The notes below the pieces were generated by a model. The model did no database searches. It had not been told where the DNA came from and saw only the letters and a program-made list of their open reading frames with translations. Shown in pieces: positions 53,761 to 64,000 of a DNA stretch of 64,000 nt. Position 1 is the stretch's first letter. The number at the start of each line of letters is the position of its first letter. The position numbers were made by a program, and so were the translations under genes. This DNA is from Chloroflexota bacterium (GTDB lineage Bacteria > Chloroflexota > Anaerolineae > Anaerolineales > Villigracilaceae), in assembly GCA_016234495.1 (NCBI GenBank), contig JACRBI010000030.1, positions 62,001-126,000 of the forward strand. Reading direction: 5' to 3'.

Positions 53761-54735
53761 ATGCTGACCTACGCCGTAAGACGTATCCTTCAAACCATAC
53801 CCATTCTCTTCATCATCAGCGTCCTGCTGTTCTTTCTTGTGCGCTCCGCGCCGGGCGGCCCGTTGACTTCTGCGCGGCGCAATCCAAATGTCACGAAGGA
53901 ACAGATCGAAGCCATTGAAGAAAAACTCGGGCTCAACGACCCGCTGCCTGTGCAGTATGGCCGCTGGATCGGCGATATGTTCAAAGGGGATCTGGGCGAA
54001 TCGATCAAATTCCATCGCCCCGTCAACGATATGATCGCAGAGAGAATCCCCAACACGCTGACTCTTGTGGGAGCATCGTTTTTATTAACGCTGATCGTCG
54101 CAATTCCCATTGGCATGTTTTCGGCGCGAAAGCCATACTCGCTGTTCGACTACGTCATGACCACGATCACGTTCATCGGCCAGTCCATTCCTGTCTATTG
54201 GCTTGGATTGGGTCTGATCGTTATCTTCTATGTCACGCTAAAAAATCCATTTACGGGCATTCCCTTCTTCCCCGTTGGCGGAATGAACACGCGCGGCAAG
54301 GAAGGCGAACTGCTCGATACGCTCTGGCATTTGGTTCTGCCTGTCACTGCCTTAAGCCTTGGTTGGATCGCATGGTACTCACGTTTCCTGCGCTCCAGCA
54401 TGATGGATGTTTTGCACGAAGATTACGTCCGCACGGCGAAGGCCAAAGGCGCAAGTTTCAATGTCGTATATTACAAACACGCGCTGCAAAACGCGATCCT
54501 GCCCCTGGTGACTCTCATTGCGCTTGACCTGCCGAGCTTGTTTGCGGGCGCACTTTTTGTGGAAACGATCTTTTCATGGCCGGGCATGGGGCGTCTCTTT
54601 TGGGATGCCGCCAAGGGACGCGACTATCCCATTCTGCTCGGTGTGGTAATGATCACTGCCGTGCTCATCATTTTTTGCAACATCCTCGCCGACCTTGCTT
54701 ATGGCTGGCTCGACCCGCGGGTGAAGTATGAATGA
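53761..54735 (+). CDS. Peptide/nickel-type ABC transporter permease, DppB-like
   Basis: A 324-residue membrane protein with six helices of the OppB/DppB type. It opens MLTYAVRRILQTIPILFIISVLLFFLVRSAPGGPL, has LGLNDPLPVQYGRWIGDMFKGDLG, and carries the coupling loop DYVRTAKAKGASFNVVYYKHALQNAILPLVTL (EAA motif). The end LADLAYGWLDPRVKY is typical. It is the first of two permeases, with 8-base overlap to the next and a substrate-binding protein downstream. No ATPase genes follow, so the motor must be encoded elsewhere. Confidence 0.96.
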   Translation: MLTYAVRRILQTIPILFIISVLLFFLVRSAPGGPLTSARRNPNVTKEQIEAIEEKLGLNDPLPVQYGRWIGDMFKGDLGESIKFHRPVNDMIAERIPNTLTLVGASFLLTLIVAIPIGMFSARKPYSLFDYVMTTITFIGQSIPVYWLGLGLIVIFYVTLKNPFTGIPFFPVGGMNTRGKEGELLDTLWHLVLPVTALSLGWIAWYSRFLRSSMMDVLHEDYVRTAKAKGASFNVVYYKHALQNAILPLVTLIALDLPSLFAGALFVETIFSWPGMGRLFWDAAKGRDYPILLGVVMITAVLIIFCNILADLAYGWLDPRVKYE

Positions 54736-55618
54736 GCCCATCATTCAGGAACAAAGCATGGCGCGCGTCATCCTGCGGCGTTTCTTCAAACACAAACTTG
54801 CGGGCATCGCCATCGCAGTCCTTGCCCTGCTGGTACTCGCCTCCGCATTTGCGTTTACAACCCCGTACAGTCCCACCGACCAGGAACCGACAAACAGTTT
54901 TCAGAAAACAAGCATGGATCATTGGTTTGGGACGGATGAATTAGGACGCGATGTATTCACGCGAATTTTGTACGGCGGTCGGGTCTCACTGACAGTTGGT
55001 CTGTTTTCTACTTTCCTTTCCATCGCTTTGGGTGTTCTGGTCGGCGCATTGAGCGGATACTTTGGCGGCTGGGTCGACTCGGTTCTGATGCGCATCACCG
55101 ACGCCTTCCTGACCTTCCCCACCATTTTTGTGCTGATCATCCTCGGAGCGTTTTTGCGCGAACAGCAGGTGCCGTGGTTGAAGAACAGCGTGCTGATCGT
55201 GATCATCATCATCGCCGCGCTCTCGTGGATGTGGCCGGCCCGTCTCGTGCGCGGACTCTTCCTCGTGCTGCGCGAGCGCGAATTCGTCACAGCTTCGCGC
55301 GCGCTTGGCGGAAATAGTTCGCGCATCATCATTCAACACATCCTGCCGAATTGCATCGGTCCCATTTTGGTCAGCGGCACATTGCAAATGGCTTCAGCCA
55401 TCATCACCGAATCTGGATTAAGTTATTTGGGCTTCGGTGTCCAGCCTCCCACCCCAACCTGGGGCAGCATTTTAGCCACCGCGCAGAATCAAGTCTTCCG
55501 CGCCCCGTGGATCGCGTTCTACCCCGGGTTGATGATCTTCATCACCGTCATGGCAATCAACTACATCGGCGATGGTCTGCGCGATGCGTTTGATCCGTAT
55601 GTGGTCCACACAGAGTAG
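54728..55618 (+). CDS. Peptide/nickel-type ABC transporter permease, DppC-like
   Basis: A 296-residue permease of the OppC/DppC type. The DNA shows MDHWFGTDELGRDVFTRILYGGRVSLTVGLFS, then SGYFGGWVDSVLMRITDAFLTFPTIFVLIILGAF. The EAA loop is EFVTASRALGGNSSRIIIQHILPNCIGPILV and the end is GDGLRDAFDPYV. It overlaps the DppB-like gene by 8 bases and pairs with it as a heterodimeric pore. The next gene, a binding protein, begins 44 bases later across a short hairpin. Confidence 0.95.
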   Translation: MNEPIIQEQSMARVILRRFFKHKLAGIAIAVLALLVLASAFAFTTPYSPTDQEPTNSFQKTSMDHWFGTDELGRDVFTRILYGGRVSLTVGLFSTFLSIALGVLVGALSGYFGGWVDSVLMRITDAFLTFPTIFVLIILGAFLREQQVPWLKNSVLIVIIIIAALSWMWPARLVRGLFLVLREREFVTASRALGGNSSRIIIQHILPNCIGPILVSGTLQMASAIITESGLSYLGFGVQPPTPTWGSILATAQNQVFRAPWIAFYPGLMIFITVMAINYIGDGLRDAFDPYVVHTE

Positions 55619-55640
55619 GACGAAATTCATTTCGTCCTAC
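55615..55640. repeat. Perfect hairpin between permease and binding-protein genes
   Basis: GTAGGACGAAAT (55615-55626) and ATTTCGTCCTAC (55629-55640) are exact inverted repeats around two bases, covering the DppC-like stop codon. It has no T-run, so it is more likely a repeat or a message-stability hairpin than a terminator. Confidence 0.75.
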
Positions 55641-55661
55641 AAAATCAACAAAGGAGAAGAA

Positions 55662-57362
55662 ATGAAACTAAAATTTTTGACCCTGTTCGTGATCCTCGGC
55701 CTCATGCTCAGCGCATGTGGCAGTGGAGGAAATGCGCCAGCAACAGAACCAGTTTCGGGCGCGGGGGGAACCGTCACCTTAATCATCCCTGAAGAGCCGA
55801 CCACCCTCAATTACTTTATGGCTGACGCGGCCATTGTCCGTCAGGCTGCTGAAGCAACGATGATGACTGGTTTGGCGACCATCAATGAAAATGGCGATTA
55901 CGTCGCAACGCTCGCGCAGGAATTGCCCACACTTGATAACGGCGGCCTCTCGGCTGATTATCTGACTGTAACCTGGAAATTGCGCGAAGGACTGAAATGG
56001 TCTGACGGCGAAGCGATCACGTCAGACGATATCAAGTTTACGGTTGAAGTGCTTTCAAATCCCGATGCTGGCGCGCTAGTCGGCACAAGCGGGTTTGATC
56101 TGATTGCATCCGTCGAAACACCCGATGATCTAACCGCCGTATTGAGTTACTCCGAACCGTACCCCGGGTATCTCGATCAATTTGCGTATGGCTTGTTCCC
56201 GCGCCATGCCACCGGCGAACCAGCCGACATGGCAAACTGGGAGTGGAATCGCAACCCTGTTGGAGCGGGTCCGTTTGTGTTGAGTAATTGGGCGTCAGGC
56301 GAGAGCCTCACCATGACCCGCAACCCGAATTATTATGAAGCAGGCAAGCCGTATTTGGATTCGCTCGTCTTTGTGATCGTGCCTGAACCTGCCGCGCAAA
56401 CCGCGATGATGTTGAACGGCGAGGCTCAATTCCAATTATGGCCCGGCGAATTCAAAGCCGATTACGATGAACTGCTCAAAGGCAAAGCCTCGCAGCACCT
56501 CATCCCCGGTATTTGGAACATGGCCATTGACTTTAATTTGAGCGCGCCTTTCGATGGCGATGCAACCGCCGCAGCGCCGCACCCCATTCTCGGTGACATC
56601 CGCGTGCGTCAGGCGATTGCCAGCGCAATTAATTATCAATCTCTGCAGCAGGATGTTTTGAAAGGCAGTGTCAGCGATTCCACCAATCCGTTCGCGTATG
56701 GCTGGTATCAATGCGACCTGCCGCGCGCATTTGGATTTGACGCCGCGAAAGCGAATCAACTACTGGATGAGGCTGGCTGGGTGATGGGCGATGACGGCAT
56801 CCGCGTGGCGAAGGATGCGTTGTACGCGGAAGATGGAACGCGCCTCTCTCTTGAACTGCAAGGGTATACGGCTTTCGATCCGCTGCAACTCACCGAAGAA
56901 TTCATCGTCGAGAACCTGAAGGCTGTCGGCATCGAAGCGCGGATTCAAAACTACGACTTCTCGATCATCTTCGGCACCTTTGAAGATAACTCGCCGCGCG
57001 CCGTCGGTGACTATGATATGTTGATCTTTGACCGCGGCTTCACCACCGAGCCGCAGGGTTACAACTTCGACGCCTATCATTCATCGCGCATTCCCACTGC
57101 CGAGAATCCCACGGGCGGAAATTACTTCCGCTGGGTGAATGACGATGTGGATATTGCGCTTGAAGTTGCGGGCAGCAGTTTTGACCTGCAAACACGAAAG
57201 GATGCCTACTGCAGGATTGGTCAGGCCGTCATTGACGATCTGCCGCAGGTCTATCTGTATCTCTTCCAGGATAACTACGGCGTGGCTGATAACCTCGAAG
57301 GATACATCCTCAGCACATGGGGCTCCATGAGTTGGGGCGCGCAGAATTGGAAATATAAATAA
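55662..57362 (+). CDS. ABC transporter substrate-binding lipoprotein, family 5
   Basis: A 566-residue lipoprotein (signal MKLKFLTLFVILGLMLSAC, lipobox LSAC). ATG 55662 follows AAAGGAG; an open frame from 55572 would run inside the permease gene. It has the SBP_bac_5 layout: PEEPTTLNYFMADAAIVRQAAEATMMTGLATINENGDYVATLAQELP, WKLREGLKWSDGEAITSDDIKFTVEVL, GTGPF-type NPVGAGPFVLSNW, and DIRVRQAIASAINYQSL. It captures the ligand for the two permeases. A peptide or similar ligand is likely, but the pocket cannot be read from sequence. Confidence 0.95.
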   Translation: MKLKFLTLFVILGLMLSACGSGGNAPATEPVSGAGGTVTLIIPEEPTTLNYFMADAAIVRQAAEATMMTGLATINENGDYVATLAQELPTLDNGGLSADYLTVTWKLREGLKWSDGEAITSDDIKFTVEVLSNPDAGALVGTSGFDLIASVETPDDLTAVLSYSEPYPGYLDQFAYGLFPRHATGEPADMANWEWNRNPVGAGPFVLSNWASGESLTMTRNPNYYEAGKPYLDSLVFVIVPEPAAQTAMMLNGEAQFQLWPGEFKADYDELLKGKASQHLIPGIWNMAIDFNLSAPFDGDATAAAPHPILGDIRVRQAIASAINYQSLQQDVLKGSVSDSTNPFAYGWYQCDLPRAFGFDAAKANQLLDEAGWVMGDDGIRVAKDALYAEDGTRLSLELQGYTAFDPLQLTEEFIVENLKAVGIEARIQNYDFSIIFGTFEDNSPRAVGDYDMLIFDRGFTTEPQGYNFDAYHSSRIPTAENPTGGNYFRWVNDDVDIALEVAGSSFDLQTRKDAYCRIGQAVIDDLPQVYLYLFQDNYGVADNLEGYILSTWGSMSWGAQNWKYK

Positions 57363-57457: not shown

Positions 57458-59059
57458 CTACCTCAACCGCCGCGCATCTCGCACCAAATCTACGAACTCA
57501 TCCATATAGTCATCACGATACAGGTATTCGCGAATGCGGCGGGCTTCATCGTATACATGATCGAGAGAGCTTCCCTCCGCCCAATAGCTGCCTTTCAGGA
57601 TTTCGGCATATTCCGCGACAACCACGGCGCGTTGGAAATAAGGATTGGTCTCTTCAAAATCAAAAGCCATCTGACCCGCGTCAAAATCCTGTGAAATCTC
57701 AACGATCTGGTGAGTGTCGGGATCTTCCCAGCGCATGTAGACTATGGCAATTTTTCCGTTGTGGGCATTGGGGTGGAGTTTGACCTCATACAGCGCAGTG
57801 ACTGAATGCCCCGCGCCGATCTCGCCCGCATCGACAGAATTATCGCGGAACTCATCATCTGCCACGGCGCGGTTTTCGTAGCCGATGAGTCGATAGCGCA
57901 AAACGGTTTCGGGGTTGAACTCCACCTGAACTTTTGCATCCAGGGCAATGGTCTGCAAAGTGCCTGTGATCTCATCAATGAAAAGTCTGCGGGCTTCATC
58001 GCGGTCATCCACGTAGGCATAGAAACCATTGCCATTGTCGGCAAGCTGCTCCATGAGTGTGTCGTTGTAATTGTCCATGCCAAAGCCGATGGTGGTGAGT
58101 GTGACTCCGCGCTCGACGTGGCGGTGGATCTCTTCGAGGATCGCATCCGCTTCGGTCTGGCCGACGTTTGCCACGCCATCCGAGCAGAGGATTACCCGAT
58201 TGATTCCATCGCGGTTGAAGGCTTCCATTGCCATGCCATAGCCGAGTCGGATTCCAGCTTCGGCATTCGTGGAACCTTCGGGATGCAGGCTGTAGATCGC
58301 GGAGAGGATTCTGTCAGAATCAGAACCAGCTGTCGGCTCGAGAACGACACGCGCGTCTGATCCATAAACGACAATGCTGACTGTGTCATTCCGATGTAAT
58401 TGCTCCACCAGCATTTCAAGCGACTGTTTTACGAGGCCGAGGCGATTATCCATATCCATCGAGCCGGAGACGTCGATCACGAAAGTCAGCGCGGCATCCT
58501 TGCGGTCTTCTTCGTCCACTTCAAAACCTTGAATTCCAACGCGCAGCATGTCGTAGCGCTCGGTTTCGGTAAAAGGAGACGGGCCGCCGTCAATGTAAAT
58601 TCCAAAAGCCTGATGCGCGGGCGGCGAGTCGTAGCCCTGGTCGAAATAGTTGATGTACTCCTCCACGCGGACAGAATCTTCGGGCGGGAGGTTCCCGTCA
58701 TTTATATAATTTCGCATGACGGTGTAGGAACCCGTATCCACATCCAGCGCAAAAGTGGACAGGTTGTCGTCTTCGGTGTCTATGGATGGATTGACTCCGT
58801 AGTCTTCGAAGAACATATCGTACGGTTCATTGCTTGATGGGGATTTTCCGCTTGACTGAGGCGCAGCGAAGAACGATTGCGTGGGAAAGGCTTGCGGTTG
58901 GGCTGGGGCTTCCGCTGCTGGTGCCTCGGTTGCAACGGGCGCATATGAATAATCAGTCACGAGCGGAGCTTTTGTTGCCGCAGCGCCACCGCCGCAAGCG
59001 GAGGTGAAGAGCAACAGAAGTAGAACACTAAAACCAATGGTTTTGCGTAAGGTTATCAT
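57458..59059 (-). CDS. VWA-domain lipoprotein, YfbK-like
   Basis: A 533-residue lipoprotein (lipobox TSAC, Cys22). ATG 59059 follows AGGAGAAG. A Pro/Ala linker (~40-80) leads to a YfbK-like N-domain (VNPSIDTEDDNLSTFALDVDTGSYTVMRNYINDGNLPPEDSVRVEEYINYF). The VWA domain at ~165-365 has an intact metal site DVSGS (Asp196, Ser198, Ser200), Thr in GSTNAEAG and Asp in VILCSDGVAN. The DUF3520-like C-terminus holds ELDPEKVSRYRLIGYENR-type wording (here FNPETVLRYRLIGYENRAV). It is a cell-surface adhesion or assembly protein. Its partner is unknown. Confidence 0.93.
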   Translation of the reverse strand: MITLRKTIGFSVLLLLLFTSACGGGAAATKAPLVTDYSYAPVATEAPAAEAPAQPQAFPTQSFFAAPQSSGKSPSSNEPYDMFFEDYGVNPSIDTEDDNLSTFALDVDTGSYTVMRNYINDGNLPPEDSVRVEEYINYFDQGYDSPPAHQAFGIYIDGGPSPFTETERYDMLRVGIQGFEVDEEDRKDAALTFVIDVSGSMDMDNRLGLVKQSLEMLVEQLHRNDTVSIVVYGSDARVVLEPTAGSDSDRILSAIYSLHPEGSTNAEAGIRLGYGMAMEAFNRDGINRVILCSDGVANVGQTEADAILEEIHRHVERGVTLTTIGFGMDNYNDTLMEQLADNGNGFYAYVDDRDEARRLFIDEITGTLQTIALDAKVQVEFNPETVLRYRLIGYENRAVADDEFRDNSVDAGEIGAGHSVTALYEVKLHPNAHNGKIAIVYMRWEDPDTHQIVEISQDFDAGQMAFDFEETNPYFQRAVVVAEYAEILKGSYWAEGSSLDHVYDEARRIREYLYRDDYMDEFVDLVRDARRLR

Positions 59060-59266
59060 TTTGCTTCTCCTGTGAAAATATTTTTTTGAATGGGACAGGT
59101 AAAGAAGGCCAGCAGGCGGCGTTCCGCTGAACTTCAAAGGATTACATCAAGTCATAGGCCCTCCAATCTGTTGATCATTCTTTTGCTGGATGGACGGTTG
59201 GTTTGCGGGGAAAGTTCCCGCATCAAAATAAGCGGAGCGCAATGTACGCAATTCCCCTGTGGCTGG

Positions 59267-59272
59267 TAAAAT
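59267..59272 (+). promoter_or_regulatory. -10 box close to the first LysM/M23 gene
   Basis: TAAAAT at 59267-59272 lies seven bases before ATG 59280. There is no Shine-Dalgarno, so a leaderless start is likely. Confidence 0.45.
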
Positions 59273-59279
59273 CGCATCC

Positions 59280-60872
59280 ATGCCATTACAAAATAACACG
59301 TCAAGATTTTCACGCATACGAAAATTTTTTACCTTTGTACTTTTTACTCTCCTCATTACCTCCTGTTCAACGCCGACATCCCAGCCTGTGTTCTTGCCAA
59401 CCTACGATCCCTTTTTACCAATCTCGGGGGGTGTCTCTGAAAATCCATCTACTCCAGACCCAAACGCCACGCGTCCGCCGTCTCCAACGCGCGTGCCATT
59501 GACCGTGTCGCCGCCAGCCAGCATTTCAGCGGATCAGTCTTTCAGCACGCCCACGCCTGATGCGATCCATGCCCTGCCCACTCTGCGCCCGAATGCAGAG
59601 CCGTATATTGTCCAGCCCGGGGATACGCTTGGCCTCATCGCACAGGGATACGGAATCAGCGTGGCGGCGTTGATGGAAGCTAATAACATCACTGATCCAA
59701 ACCTGCTGGAGGTCGGCACGCTGTTATCCGTCCCTGCGCCGAACCCGGCAGATACAGGGCCAGCTTTCAAGGTCATCCCTGATTCGGAATTGGTCTATGG
59801 TCCAGCCAGCGTGTATTTCGACATCCAGGATTTCATCCAAAGTCAAAATGGATACCTTGCCGGTTATTCACAGGATGTGAATGGCACGATCATGTCTGGT
59901 GATGAAATCGTTTTTTTTGTGGCGAGCAATTATTCGGTCAATCCGCGTTTGCTTCTGGCATTGTTGGAATATCAAAGCGGCTGGGTCACCCACCCCGCGC
60001 CGGTTGACACGTCCTATCCGATGGGATTGCAGGACGAATACCACAACGGCTTATATCGCCAATTGACCTGGGCGGCGGATAATTTAAATCGCGGATACTA
60101 TCTGTGGAGAGCAAACGCCATTTCCACATGGGTGTTGAGTGATGGCACAGTCATCCCCATTGACCCGACCATCAACGCCGGCACAGCCGCAGTACAAAAT
60201 TTCTTCGCCCAGATCGATGATCGCCCAGCGTGGGAAAAAGATGTGGATGGTACCGGCCTGCTGCTCACTTATTTTGTTTTCTTTGGCAATCCATTCAACT
60301 ACGCAATTGAGCCGCTTGTTGCGCCATCCATCACCCAGCCGGCAATGACCCTTCCTTTTGAAACCGGCGAAATCTGGTACTTCACGGGCGGCCCGCATGG
60401 CGGCTGGGACTCAGGCTCGGCGTGGGCCGCGCTCGATTTCGCTCCGCCCGGCGAATTGGGCTGCGCCGTGTCACCAGCCTGGGTTGCGGCAAGCGCAAGC
60501 GGTTTCGTGGTGCGCGCATCCGATGGCGCGGTAATTCTTGACCTTGATAACGACGGCTACGAACAAACAGGCTGGAATATTTTATTCATGCACATTGCCG
60601 CAGAAGATCGCGTGCAAGCTGGCGAATATCTATTTGCGGGCGAGCGCATCGGCCACCCATCCTGCGAAGGCGGATATTCAAACGCCACACATGTTCACGT
60701 TGCGCGCAAATTCAACGGCGAGTGGATCGCCGCCGACGGCTCGCTGCCATTCAACCTTGAAGGCTGGGTGTCGAGCGGCACAGGCCGCGAATACGACGGG
60801 TTTATCACAAAAGGCTCCAAGTCCATTGAAGCGCTGGACAGGGCAGATGAACTCAATCTGATCTCGCGTTGA
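59280..60872 (+). CDS. LysM/M23 lipoprotein 1, putative cell-wall hydrolase
   Basis: A 530-residue lipoprotein (lipobox ITSC). ATG 59280 is chosen over 59259 because of the -10 box just before it. The order is a Pro/Thr stalk, a LysM at ~108-155 (YIVQPGDTLGLIAQGYGISVAALMEANNI), a middle region at ~175-320 with VNPRLLLALLEYQSGW and INAGTAAVQNFFAQ, and an M23-like peptidase at ~360-505. The M23 motifs are TGGPHGGWDSG, ALDFAPPGELGC and THVHVARKF (HxH). The middle looks like a lytic-transglycosylase-like fold, but the usual catalytic Glu is Gln. It is the first of three tandem paralogues. Confidence 0.88.
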   Translation: MPLQNNTSRFSRIRKFFTFVLFTLLITSCSTPTSQPVFLPTYDPFLPISGGVSENPSTPDPNATRPPSPTRVPLTVSPPASISADQSFSTPTPDAIHALPTLRPNAEPYIVQPGDTLGLIAQGYGISVAALMEANNITDPNLLEVGTLLSVPAPNPADTGPAFKVIPDSELVYGPASVYFDIQDFIQSQNGYLAGYSQDVNGTIMSGDEIVFFVASNYSVNPRLLLALLEYQSGWVTHPAPVDTSYPMGLQDEYHNGLYRQLTWAADNLNRGYYLWRANAISTWVLSDGTVIPIDPTINAGTAAVQNFFAQIDDRPAWEKDVDGTGLLLTYFVFFGNPFNYAIEPLVAPSITQPAMTLPFETGEIWYFTGGPHGGWDSGSAWAALDFAPPGELGCAVSPAWVAASASGFVVRASDGAVILDLDNDGYEQTGWNILFMHIAAEDRVQAGEYLFAGERIGHPSCEGGYSNATHVHVARKFNGEWIAADGSLPFNLEGWVSSGTGREYDGFITKGSKSIEALDRADELNLISR

Positions 60873-60897
60873 TTCATCCAGACTTAATATTGGCAGA

Positions 60898-60903
60898 TAT
60901 AAT
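60898..60903 (+). promoter_or_regulatory. -10 box close to the second LysM/M23 gene
   Basis: TATAAT at 60898-60903 lies seven bases before ATG 60911, with no Shine-Dalgarno. The longer frame from 60869 would start upstream of this promoter. Confidence 0.5.
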
Positions 60904-60910
60904 TCACACC

Positions 60911-62530
60911 ATGCATCGTGTAATTTTAATTTTCGTTCTCCTTTCCTTGACATTATCAGCCTGCGGAGCGACTCCATCCATTTGGGGAGTTCTGCCAACC
61001 CCCACAGCCGATTCTCCGATTCAAGAGCCGCTTCTTCCCGACCCGATACCTGCTCAATTTGACCCGCTCATTTCCCCCACTTCGACAGTTCCGCCGAACA
61101 TCGTCATCAAGACACCCGTGGTCATCACTTCAACGTCAGCGCCGAACGACTCAACTCCGACCGCGACCCGGACTGCAGCATTGGACGCCGCTCCGTATCT
61201 CTACTATGCCCAAAGCGGAGACATGCTCTCAGCAGTGGCAAGCCGCTTCGGGGTGGACGAGAACGAGATCACGTCCAATGCAGACCTGACCAAGACCACG
61301 TTGATCGATCCCGGCACGCTGCTCGTGATTCCAAATCACATCACCGAACCGACCACGCCGAACATTCAGATTCTGCCGGATGCCGAGATTATTTTTTCGA
61401 TCACCGCTAAAGATTTTAATGTGACGGAATACGTGCAAAAAGCCAATGGTCACCTGAGCACGTTCAAGGATTATCTTGGTTCAACCGGCGCGATCGATGG
61501 TGATAAAGCCATCGAACGACTTGCCGTTGAAAATTCCATTAATCCGCGCCTGCTGCTTGGCTTGCTGGAATATGAAAGCCGCTGGGTACGAGGCGAGCCT
61601 GTGGATGTTTTCCATGTTGAGTACCCGATGGGATTTAACGACTTCCGCTACAAAGGCATGTTCGTGCAAATGGTGTGGGCTGTAAATAACATGTCGATCG
61701 CTTATTATGGCTGGCGCGCAGGCACGATCACCCATCTGCAATTTTCAGACGGAAGCACCCTGCGCATCGACCCGCGCCTGAATGCCGGCACGGTCGCCAT
61801 TCAATATTTATTCTCACTGACTCACAGCCAGTCTCAATGGTCACAGATCATCAACCCGGATTCGGGCTTCCCCGCCATGTACGAGGAAATGTTTGATGAC
61901 CCCTGGTCGCGCGCCGAACCTGCCAACCCCATTTTCCCGTCAGCTTTGAATCAGCCCACGCTTGTACTGCCTTTTGAGCCAAACACCAAATGGAGCCTGA
62001 CCGGCGGTCCGCACAACGGCTGGGGGCAACTCAGCGAGCAGGTTTATGGCGGCTTCCACAGCGTGTATGCTGCCATTGACTTCGCTCCTGCTGCGGCGCG
62101 GACTGGATGCGATATTTCTGCCGCCTGGGTTACGGCATCCGCGCCCGGGCTTGTCGTCCGCTCTGAAAATGGCGCGGTCATGGTTGACCTGGACGGTGAC
62201 GGCTACGAACAAACCGGCTGGAATCTGCTTTACATGCACATGAGTTCGCAGGAACGTGTAAAGGTCGGCACGTGGCTGGAGACGAATGATCGCATCGGTC
62301 ACCCCTCCTGCGAAGGCGGCGTCTCGACCGGCACCCATCTGCATTTCGCAAGAAAATATAACGGTGAGTGGGTCACCGCCGATGGGCCGATTCCATTCAT
62401 CCTGAACGGCTGGCGCGTCGTCGCCGGCGACAAAGCCTATGAAGGCAAACTCGTGCGCGGCGACGAAGTTGTCATTGCCGATCCGAACGGTCAAAAGAAG
62501 TCAAATATCATTCGCAATAAAGATGAATAA
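60911..62530 (+). CDS. LysM/M23 lipoprotein 2, putative cell-wall hydrolase
   Basis: A 539-residue paralogue (lipobox LSAC). The layout is a Pro/Ser stalk, LysM at ~96-140 (YYAQSGDMLSAVASRFGVDENEITSNADL), a middle region with INPRLLLGLLEYESRWV and LNAGTVAIQYLFS, and an M23-like domain at ~350-510 (TGGPHNGWGQLSEQ, AIDFAPAAARTGCD, THLHFARKYNGEW). Here the middle motif keeps Glu where the flanking paralogues have Gln, so this copy may be the active one. The C-terminus VRGDEVVIADPNGQ differs from copy 1. The third copy starts inside its last codons, overlapping by 8 bases. Confidence 0.88.
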   Translation: MHRVILIFVLLSLTLSACGATPSIWGVLPTPTADSPIQEPLLPDPIPAQFDPLISPTSTVPPNIVIKTPVVITSTSAPNDSTPTATRTAALDAAPYLYYAQSGDMLSAVASRFGVDENEITSNADLTKTTLIDPGTLLVIPNHITEPTTPNIQILPDAEIIFSITAKDFNVTEYVQKANGHLSTFKDYLGSTGAIDGDKAIERLAVENSINPRLLLGLLEYESRWVRGEPVDVFHVEYPMGFNDFRYKGMFVQMVWAVNNMSIAYYGWRAGTITHLQFSDGSTLRIDPRLNAGTVAIQYLFSLTHSQSQWSQIINPDSGFPAMYEEMFDDPWSRAEPANPIFPSALNQPTLVLPFEPNTKWSLTGGPHNGWGQLSEQVYGGFHSVYAAIDFAPAAARTGCDISAAWVTASAPGLVVRSENGAVMVDLDGDGYEQTGWNLLYMHMSSQERVKVGTWLETNDRIGHPSCEGGVSTGTHLHFARKYNGEWVTADGPIPFILNGWRVVAGDKAYEGKLVRGDEVVIADPNGQKKSNIIRNKDE

Positions 62531-64000
62531 AAAAAATAATAAATTGCTGGCTGGCATTCTGACGACCGCCCTGTTCATCACATCCTGCAACCTGCAAAGA
62601 CCATTCCCGACCCTGCTGATCAACCCTGCCACAAGCCAATCTGAAAATTCAGCAGCGCCTGTTTCAGCCCAAACGCCTTTACCAACCCGCACAACCTACG
62701 TCCCCGGCGAATTGGTGGATTACACCGCGCAGGACGGCGACACGCTTCCCGCGCTCGCGAAACGATTTAACACTTCGGTCGCAGAGATCATGCAAGCCAA
62801 CCCGCAGATTCCCAGCGATGCGACCACCATGCCGCCGGGCATGCCCATGAAGATTCCAATTTATTATCTGGCTTTGTGGTCAAGCCCCTTCAAGATCCTC
62901 CCCGATCATGCATTTGTCAACAGCCCAACCTCCATCGGGTTTAATACTGCAGCCTTCGTCGAGTCCCAACCCGGCTGGCTGAAAGATTACCGCGTCTATG
63001 TCAGTGGTGAATGGCGTTCCGGCGCCGAGATGGTGGATTACATTGCCACCAACTACAGCATCAGTCCGCGGTTGCTGCTTGCAATTTTGGAATATCAAGG
63101 CGGCGCGCTGACCCAACCAGAGATTCCGGAAAAGAAGAATCTGCTCGGGTTGAAACGCCAGTTCTGGACATCCCATTATCTTCAACTAGTGCTGGCCGCA
63201 AACGAACTCAACAACGGATTTTATGGCTGGCGGGCGGGAACCCTGCTTGAATTTAAAGATGTGGATGATTTTCTGATCAGACCCGACCCGTGGCAGAATG
63301 CCGCATCTGTCGCGATTCAATATTACTACTCGAGAATTTTTGCCGGGGATCCTTACGCGCTCGCCACTGGACCTGAGGGATTCGCGCTGACCTACTCAAA
63401 AATTTTCGGCGACCCGTGGAGCGACTCCACAATTCTCATCCCCGGCAGTTTGCAGCAGCCCGCGTTTCGCTTTCCATTCCCGGACAATCAAATCTGGTCG
63501 TACACCGGCGGACCGCACACCGGCTGGGGCACAGGCGAACCGTTCGCGGCGGTAGACTTCGCGCCGCCTGCCGAAAAATCGGGCTGCGTCGCCGCAGGGA
63601 ATGATAATTTCTCCGTCGCCATGGCAGACGGTTTGGTTGTACGTTCCAGCGCGGATGGTATCGCGCTCGACCTCGATAAAGATGGCGACGAGCGCACAGG
63701 CTGGGTCATCTTTTACCTGCATCTCGCGGCTGAGCAGCGCGCGCCGCTTGGCGCAGAGTTAAGCGCCGGCGACTTGATTGGTTACCCATCCTGCGAAGGC
63801 GGCCACTCAACGGGCACACATGTGCATATCGCGCGAAAATATAACGGAGAGTGGCTCGTCGCCGATAGCGCCATCCCGTTCAATATCAATGGCTGGATCG
63901 TACACAACGGCAGCCGCGATTACCTCGGGACGTTGACCAAAGGCAGCGCAATCGTCACCGCTTGCGACTGCTCCGACGCAGACAGTTCCATAAGTTCAGC
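62523..64000 (+). CDS. LysM/M23 lipoprotein 3, 3' end outside the window
   Basis: ATG 62523 overlaps the previous stop by 8 bases and the frame stays open to the window edge, giving about 492 visible residues. The protein has a lipobox FITSC, a Pro/Thr stalk, LysM at ~62-108 (YTAQDGDTLPALAKRFNTSVAEIMQANPQI), and the middle motif ISPRLLLAILEYQGG. An M23-like domain follows with TGGPHTGWGTGE, AVDFAPPAEKSGCV and THVHIARKYNGEW. In the middle motif Gln replaces Glu as in copy 1. It completes the tandem triplet. The missing C-terminus may be short, since the copies end near this point. Confidence 0.88.
   Translation, partial: MNKKNNKLLAGILTTALFITSCNLQRPFPTLLINPATSQSENSAAPVSAQTPLPTRTTYVPGELVDYTAQDGDTLPALAKRFNTSVAEIMQANPQIPSDATTMPPGMPMKIPIYYLALWSSPFKILPDHAFVNSPTSIGFNTAAFVESQPGWLKDYRVYVSGEWRSGAEMVDYIATNYSISPRLLLAILEYQGGALTQPEIPEKKNLLGLKRQFWTSHYLQLVLAANELNNGFYGWRAGTLLEFKDVDDFLIRPDPWQNAASVAIQYYYSRIFAGDPYALATGPEGFALTYSKIFGDPWSDSTILIPGSLQQPAFRFPFPDNQIWSYTGGPHTGWGTGEPFAAVDFAPPAEKSGCVAAGNDNFSVAMADGLVVRSSADGIALDLDKDGDERTGWVIFYLHLAAEQRAPLGAELSAGDLIGYPSCEGGHSTGTHVHIARKYNGEWLVADSAIPFNINGWIVHNGSRDYLGTLTKGSAIVTACDCSDADSSISS

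Follow-up and report, generated by a model that had tools for sequence, protein, structure and literature searches.

Organization of the locus

At the end of the analysed stretch of DNA (hereafter the window: 64,000 nucleotides (nt) of a member of the Chloroflexota, contig JACRBI010000030.1, positions 62,001 to 126,000), three adjacent genes on the forward strand encode predicted lipoproteins that share one domain order, a LysM domain followed by a middle domain modelled with a lysozyme-like fold and an M23 peptidase domain of the M23A type. Gene 1 (59280..60872, start ATG at 59280, 530 aa) is supported by its open reading frame (ORF), by a Pfam LysM match and by its place in the copy-1 branch of the tree described below, and is followed by gene 2 (60911..62530, start ATG at 60911, 539 aa). 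Gene 3 (62523..64000, start ATG at 62523) shares its first 8 nt with the end of gene 2 and continues to window-equivalent position 64010, its stop lying ten bases outside the window and giving a protein of 495 aa (L017:7523-9010). These same-strand ORFs agree with the adjacent genes of shared LysM/M23 order described by an earlier reading made without database searches (the sequence-only reading), and its third gene is now complete. Genes 2 and 3 are 38% and 40% identical to gene 1 by alignment, and a sequence search found no fourth full-length copy in the window's own genome.

The LysM domains (PF01476) lie at 59604..59735, 61208..61333 and 62721..62858 in genes 1, 2 and 3, with Pfam scores of 53.1 (E 3.1e-14), 23.6 and 35.7 bits, all over the cut-off of 20.9. 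A lipobox-like Cys precedes the LysM domain at the N-terminus of all three proteins (LITSC, LSAC and FITSC, recognised by eye and by pattern), and a loose lipobox pattern was found in copies 1, 2 and 3 at 50, 51 and 55 of 61 named three-copy loci (these loci number 61, 62 or 63 according to the filter applied). The three proteins are therefore predicted to be anchored to the membrane as lipoproteins.

The M23 peptidase domain

The M23 domain spans 60342..60869 in gene 1, 61967..62527 in gene 2 and 63465..64000 in gene 3, where it extends past the window; it was placed by alignment in all three genes and also by Pfam and fold match in gene 2. The same M23 residues are found in all three genes on alignment, despite uneven Pfam matches. 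The HxH motif is intact in each, and the first motif is H(x)12D in genes 1 and 3 and H(x)21D in gene 2, owing to an insertion of 9 residues between His and Asp. HxH and a His about 30 residues upstream of it (33 residues in gene 1) are present in all three copies at 21/21 loci of the window's genus, as are all five M23 active-site residues, which are also kept at 62 named three-copy loci except in one copy 3, gapped at HxH. This comparison with zinc-ligand sets, which the sequence-only reading had called for, assigns every copy to the M23A type. The H(x)12D spacing occurs in copy 1 at 33/33 three-copy loci of L017-L086 and at 60/61 named ones, and in copy 3 at 32/33 and 56/61, respectively. 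The insertion characterizes copy 2 at all 21 genus loci and includes an extra His in 42 of the 51 copies that have it; it was counted in 50/69 copies 2 with Glu at the middle-domain site discussed below versus 1/24 copies 2 without it, these being related, non-independent genomes.

A profile of the M23 domains of the three genes matched pseudoalterin (E 1.6e-8), beta-lytic protease (1.1e-7) and LasA (4.5e-6) in a sequence search. The M23A fold comparison uses the AlphaFold model of gene 2, the one model among the three genes, which covers everything from LysM to the C-terminus (pLDDT 92.6, pTM 0.92) and matches LasA with a Z of 19.0 (rmsd 2.5, 165 residues aligned), pseudoalterin with 18.7 and beta-lytic protease with 18.1 (rmsd 2.5-2.7 Å over 161-165 residues). 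In addition, all three genes have an invariant Tyr 32 residues past HxH, noted here as a sequence position only, for comparison with the oxyanion Tyr (Tyr151 in LasA).

Since the M23 residues are kept in every copy, all three proteins should be active M23 endopeptidases. The sequence-only reading had proposed a pair of inactive partners plus one active enzyme; within the window's clade, this proposal holds up for the middle domain alone, and it was rejected for the whole proteins because the zinc and catalytic residues of M23 are intact in copies 1 and 3.

The middle domain

The middle domain of gene 2 was modelled over 61352..61954 with confidence (AlphaFold, pLDDT 92.4; the last 8 residues are under 50), and the corresponding region of gene 1 was placed by alignment at approximately 59766..60308. 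No Pfam family claims this domain, and a sequence search against solved structures gave no match at E 10. With VIA-align, 45 of 50 rows are enzymes of the lysozyme superfamily (43 by title and two that we take to belong there) at Z 2.3-7.9, the best being LytB (Z 7.9, rmsd 3.5 over 132 residues), followed by MltF (up to 7.5), AtlE and goose-type lysozymes (up to 6.9). A lysozyme/transglycosylase-like fold is assigned on this confident model because the list of matches is coherent, single Z values being below 8; it is consistent with the transglycosylase-like domain suspected in the sequence-only reading.

The domain was compared by hhalign with SLT domains of the same genus and order, eight in all: pattern extraction succeeded at nine of 30 SLT loci, and one ill-picked row was removed. 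This alignment scored 31.9, and the highest of 150 column shuffles reached 26.9. The comparison with GH73 (seven sequences from 30 loci) fell in the same register, with a score of 23.5 versus 23.0 for the best of 100 shuffles. Membership in GH73 was rejected, this score being barely above shuffles and PF01832 having no match in 21/21 near genomes.

The middle domain also co-occurs with M23 outside the class: among seven class- and phylum-level proteins scanned, five have no LysM match and all five have M23, four of them over the cut-off. This pairing without LysM fits a positioning role of the middle domain. At three Chloroflexota loci from beyond the class, M23 and the lysozyme-fold domain occur with no LysM match and are followed by Golvesin_C (L192, L194) or Laminin_G_3 (L201).

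The Glu/Gln site

In the hhalign comparison LNAG falls on YNAG. Since SINPRLLLGLLEYES is placed on NVDPGLVQAVIKAES, the Glu/Gln site of the triplet corresponds to the position of the SLT catalytic Glu, occupied by Gln232 in gene 1 (59973..59975), Glu222 in gene 2 (61574..61576) and Gln192 in gene 3 (63096..63098). The motifs GLMQ and AYN are those of SLT / GH23 lytic transglycosylases; in this alignment gene 2 gave no match to GLMQ, and of AYN it keeps NAG but has Leu in place of Tyr. The residue after the copy 2 Glu is Ser, Gly or Ala.

The Gln/Glu/Gln pattern pointed out by the sequence-only reading is fully conserved in the genus, with Gln in copy 1, Glu in copy 2 and Gln in copy 3 at 21/21 loci each. 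At the named loci (n=62), copy 1 has Gln in 38, Arg in 22, another residue in 2 and no Glu; copy 2 has Glu in 47, Gln in 8, His in 5, Asp in 1 and Tyr in 1; and copy 3 has Gln in 58 and Glu in 1. Among 11 copies 2 of three in the order set outside the genus, five have Gln and two Glu, and Glu is present in just 2 of 32 class- and phylum-level rows.

Parsimony on a tree of 181 rows, built with the site column left out, gives Gln or Arg at the root and eight changes between Glu and not-Glu, of which one is a gain of Glu basal to a 26-row copy-2 clade (23 rows keeping it) and the others are scattered. With such a root, the ancestral middle domain was probably a pseudo-lysozyme (Gln/Arg); within the window's clade, Glu would have returned in copy 2, where most loci have retained it, although parsimony on a quick tree is not proof. 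By this parsimony, copy 2 did not keep an original Glu, as the sequence-only reading had it, but gained one in a single clade. A conservation ranking of the site was not used, being circular for loci picked for having Glu, nor were column changes that accompany Glu among copies 2, at profile positions 284 and 310, which are confounded by ancestry. In the four-copy clusters L071, L141, L144, L152 and L166, a C-G-C motif directly follows the Glu/Gln site of the third copy, and those third copies that were placed in the tree group in the copy-2 branch.

Start signals and likely transcription units

A TAAAAT box (59267..59272) and a TATAAT box (60898..60903), both -10-like and conserved in relatives, lie 7 nt before the ATG of genes 1 and 2, respectively. 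Counts were made at three-copy loci that had the lipobox pattern, an ATG in frame with it at a distance of 12-42 codons upstream, and sufficient sequence ahead of the start (67, 64 and 69 of 94 loci for copies 1, 2 and 3), and were compared with mononucleotide shuffles. TANAAT precedes the start of copy 1 at 18/19 genus and 36/44 named loci, mostly 7 nt away (0.3 and 0.7 in shuffles), and TATAAT lies 6-12 nt before copy 2 at 21/21 genus and 30/39 named loci (0.5 and 0.3); a narrower spacing count for copy 2 gave only 12/64 versus 7.7 by shuffling. Before copy 3, TANAAT is nearly absent (0/19 genus, 2/44 named), and the laxer TANNNT occurs at 8/19 genus loci versus 3.0 by shuffling and at 14/44 named loci versus 8.7. 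Shine-Dalgarno-like sites were not above shuffles. The leaderless starts suggested for genes 1 and 2 by the sequence-only reading are supported by these boxes, conserved far above shuffles, and the two genes are a clear example, for Anaerolineales, of genes predicted to be leaderless.

In two genomes of the family, copy 1 is inverted and 8.9 and 5.9 kb off, copies 2 and 3 still being together. As boxes precede copies 1 and 2 only, gene 3 overlaps gene 2 and copy 1 is separable, two transcription units are likely, gene 1 alone and genes 2 and 3, the latter presumably co-transcribed.

Distribution and descent

Matches to the triplet family were found in 59/61 genus and order genomes, three or more of them in 55/61, suggesting that these proteins are likely part of a core wall enzyme set. 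Exactly three matches are present in 32 of the 37 genus genomes, so that the triplet goes beyond chance; one genome has two, one four, one five, and two have none (G014, 71% complete, and G023, 90%). The 24 other order genomes have three (11 genomes), four or five (ten) or two (three). In the class sample, where scoring was limited to the seven top candidates of each genome and a few matches are fragments, 93/199 genomes match and 106 do not; three or more copies are present in 10/10 genomes of the window's family and one copy in 73/83 of the other class genomes with a match. All copies lie on one strand at 33/33 and 61/61 three-copy loci. Ten of 80 named loci show fewer than three copies, of which eight run into a contig end, L115 is a split arrangement and L157 is unexplained.

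The tree used 181 of 376 rows (116 + 228 + 32 after a length filter), namely one in three of the named loci with seven chosen additions, the full set of order rows, L017 as the sole genus row, and class and phylum rows up to L209; it comes from a quick search, and 50 of its 174 inner branches are weak. Copies 2 and 3 together form a branch with SH-aLRT support of 99, within which copy 3 has 99 and copy 2 has 83, and copy 1 is separate (95). Group-specific residues also distinguish the three copies. The tree thus indicates that the triplet is made of three ancient orthologous groups across the order and involves no local duplication.

Proposed function and alternatives

We consider that the three genes are probably ancient, functionally distinct paralogues of one Anaerolineae cell-wall enzyme, M23 peptidases with a pseudo-lysozyme module, of which copy 2 has become specialised. 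In this model, the lipid anchor and LysM would keep the enzyme at the wall, the lysozyme-fold domain, lacking the catalytic acid, would grip a glycan strand in its cleft and pass the peptide to the M23 site, and the LasA/beta-lytic-type zinc peptidase would cleave the peptide cross-link. Gene 1, with its own promoter, would be nearest to the single-copy ancestor, and genes 2 and 3 would be co-transcribed from the promoter ahead of gene 2. Gene 2 would be the specialised copy, with Glu again at the lysozyme-fold catalytic position and an enlarged zinc-site loop, and perhaps cuts the glycan strand too.

Several observations weigh against this interpretation. Glycan binding by the middle domain and the enzyme activity of the three proteins are predictions. 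Pfam M23 is over its cut-off in gene 2 alone, sub-threshold in gene 3 and without a match in gene 1; outside the genus, copy 3 of L067 lacks one His of HxH; and the zinc geometry of copy 2 is less certain, as the insertion turns H(x)12D into H(x)21D. For the fold of the middle domain, every single VIA-align Z is under 8, a range where, by the tool's own warning, a match may reflect no more than a common arrangement; Foldseek gave no significant match of the gene 2 domain in the PDB (best E 1.0) and nothing at E 0.001 in the PDB and a viral library; Pfam SLT picks up 3/93 members within a limit of E 1, the strongest at 0.12, and not the gene 2 domain; and the hhalign probability of the SLT alignment is only 45%. 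Among order-level starts outside the family, the box is present at 1/4 copies 1 and 0/4 copies 2. Finally, the copy-2 branch has a support of only 83; position and orthology coincide within the window's family, with exceptions elsewhere (L068, L072, L147); and the copy-1 branch (95) includes four single copies of class level, the other single copies lying outside, so that the first split may predate the order slightly, or else these four have lost the remaining copies.

A tentative alternative is that gene 2 encodes a two-headed hydrolase, its middle domain cutting glycan as a lytic transglycosylase or muramidase through Glu222 beside M23, with copies 1 and 3 as peptidases carrying a dead lysozyme domain. 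It would be in line with the catalytic register of the Glu in both the SLT and GH73 alignments, with the confinement of Glu largely to copy 2 (21/21 genus and 47/62 named, versus 0/21 and 0/62 in copy 1 and 0/21 and 1/62 in copy 3), with the M23 loop insertion that copy 2 has of its own and that is linked with Glu, and with the rule of single-Glu catalysis in lytic transglycosylases. However, gene 2 has no GLMQ-like match and Leu for the Tyr of AYN, Ser, Gly or Ala comes after the Glu, the change from Gln to Glu takes a single base and could be neutral, and 15/62 named copies 2 have Gln, His, Asp or Tyr at the site. A rather doubtful extension is that of a pseudo-enzyme revived, where the catalytic Glu was lost before the class radiation and regained in copy 2 of one clade, which then became a two-headed hydrolase with a remodelled zinc loop between peptidase-only sisters.

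It is improbable that the three proteins are bacteriolytic or predatory weapons like LasA and beta-lytic protease, rather than enzymes remodelling the cell's own wall. Their nearest M23 structures are indeed LasA, pseudoalterin and beta-lytic protease, but the lipobox-like Cys before LysM, present in the three window proteins and at most named three-copy loci, argues against it, and three or more matches in nearly all genus and order genomes better fit a housekeeping role. We hold it very unlikely that every copy has an active middle domain working through the nearly invariant Glu of an LLE motif two residues upstream, the Glu/Gln site being non-catalytic: this position is acidic (Glu or Asp) in nearly all copies (29 Glu and 3 Asp of 32 in the class and phylum set), but both profile alignments place the other site on the catalytic Glu, the LLE position is opposite Lys or Arg in the SLT alignment, and 13/62 named copies 2 have Asp (11) or Gln (2) instead. 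Least credible is plain redundancy of recent tandem copies retained by chance or for dose, which adjacency and the same architecture might suggest: recent local duplication was rejected because the tree gives three old orthologous groups common to families of the order, and the low identity to gene 1, the group-specific residues and the differing start signals also speak against it.

Genomic neighbourhood and significance

Downstream of the triplet (L017:9055-10682, window-equivalent 64055-65682) lie genes that by eye are OsmC-like, TlpA-like and Crp-like, recurring at 43, 54 and 47 of 161 loci in a survey limited to clusters of six or more loci, the best 25 being listed. The OsmC-like and TlpA-like genes are on the opposite strand to the triplet, and the Crp-like gene lies beyond them on the same strand; together they represent old synteny without an obvious link to the triplet. 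Upstream, a gene divergent from the triplet and about 140 bp from it (57458-59137, reverse strand) encodes a lipoprotein resembling a von Willebrand factor A-type protein, and 53761-57362 (forward strand) encodes two permeases and a binding lipoprotein of a peptide-type ABC transporter, both recognised by eye. Conserved partner genes were considered and rejected: the downstream neighbours recur, the upstream side varies, and no neighbour is assigned to the system.

No report of the triplet was found in the open literature library, and Anaerolineae wall enzymes seem little studied. If the Glu of copy 2 is active, the locus would offer a natural series, dead, revived and dead, in one gene cluster for the loss and regain of catalysis in a glycosidase fold.

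Comparison with known systems

With SLT / GH23 lytic transglycosylases and goose-type lysozyme, the middle domain shares the modelled fold, the register of the helix and catalytic site, and the NAG motif. It differs from them in that most members of the triplet family have no catalytic Glu and no GLMQ-like motif and are hardly touched by Pfam SLT. The GH73 glucosaminidases (LytB, AtlE, FlgJ) include two of the best structural matches, LytB and AtlE, and the site aligns with the Glu of their ESxW motif, but this Glu is replaced in most members of the triplet family and the profile score hardly exceeds shuffles.

DipM and other LysM-M23 proteins have LysM and M23 in common with the triplet, their NCBIfam matches being weak and far below the cut-off, and differ from it in having, to our knowledge, no such middle domain. 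The phage phi29 protein gp13 (3csq) has an M23 domain and a lysozyme-like domain in the same chain; it differs in being a phage tail enzyme and, as far as we know, in carrying neither LysM nor a lipobox. Foldseek spans 415 columns of it at an rmsd of 17.2, at which the arrangement is not shown to match. According to a review, gp13 belongs to M23B with H(x)7D, and LasA (M23A) has H(x)12D as its first motif, as in copies 1 and 3 (PMC9662197).

The closest known relatives of the M23 domain are LasA (3it5), pseudoalterin (6ik4) and beta-lytic protease (8af1), which share with the triplet HxH, the upstream His and an aligned C-x-GG stretch, and which the gene 2 fold matches at Z 18-19. In contrast to these enzymes, the triplet adds a predicted lipoprotein anchor, LysM and a lysozyme-fold domain in front of the peptidase, and copy 2 of the genus carries H(x)21D.

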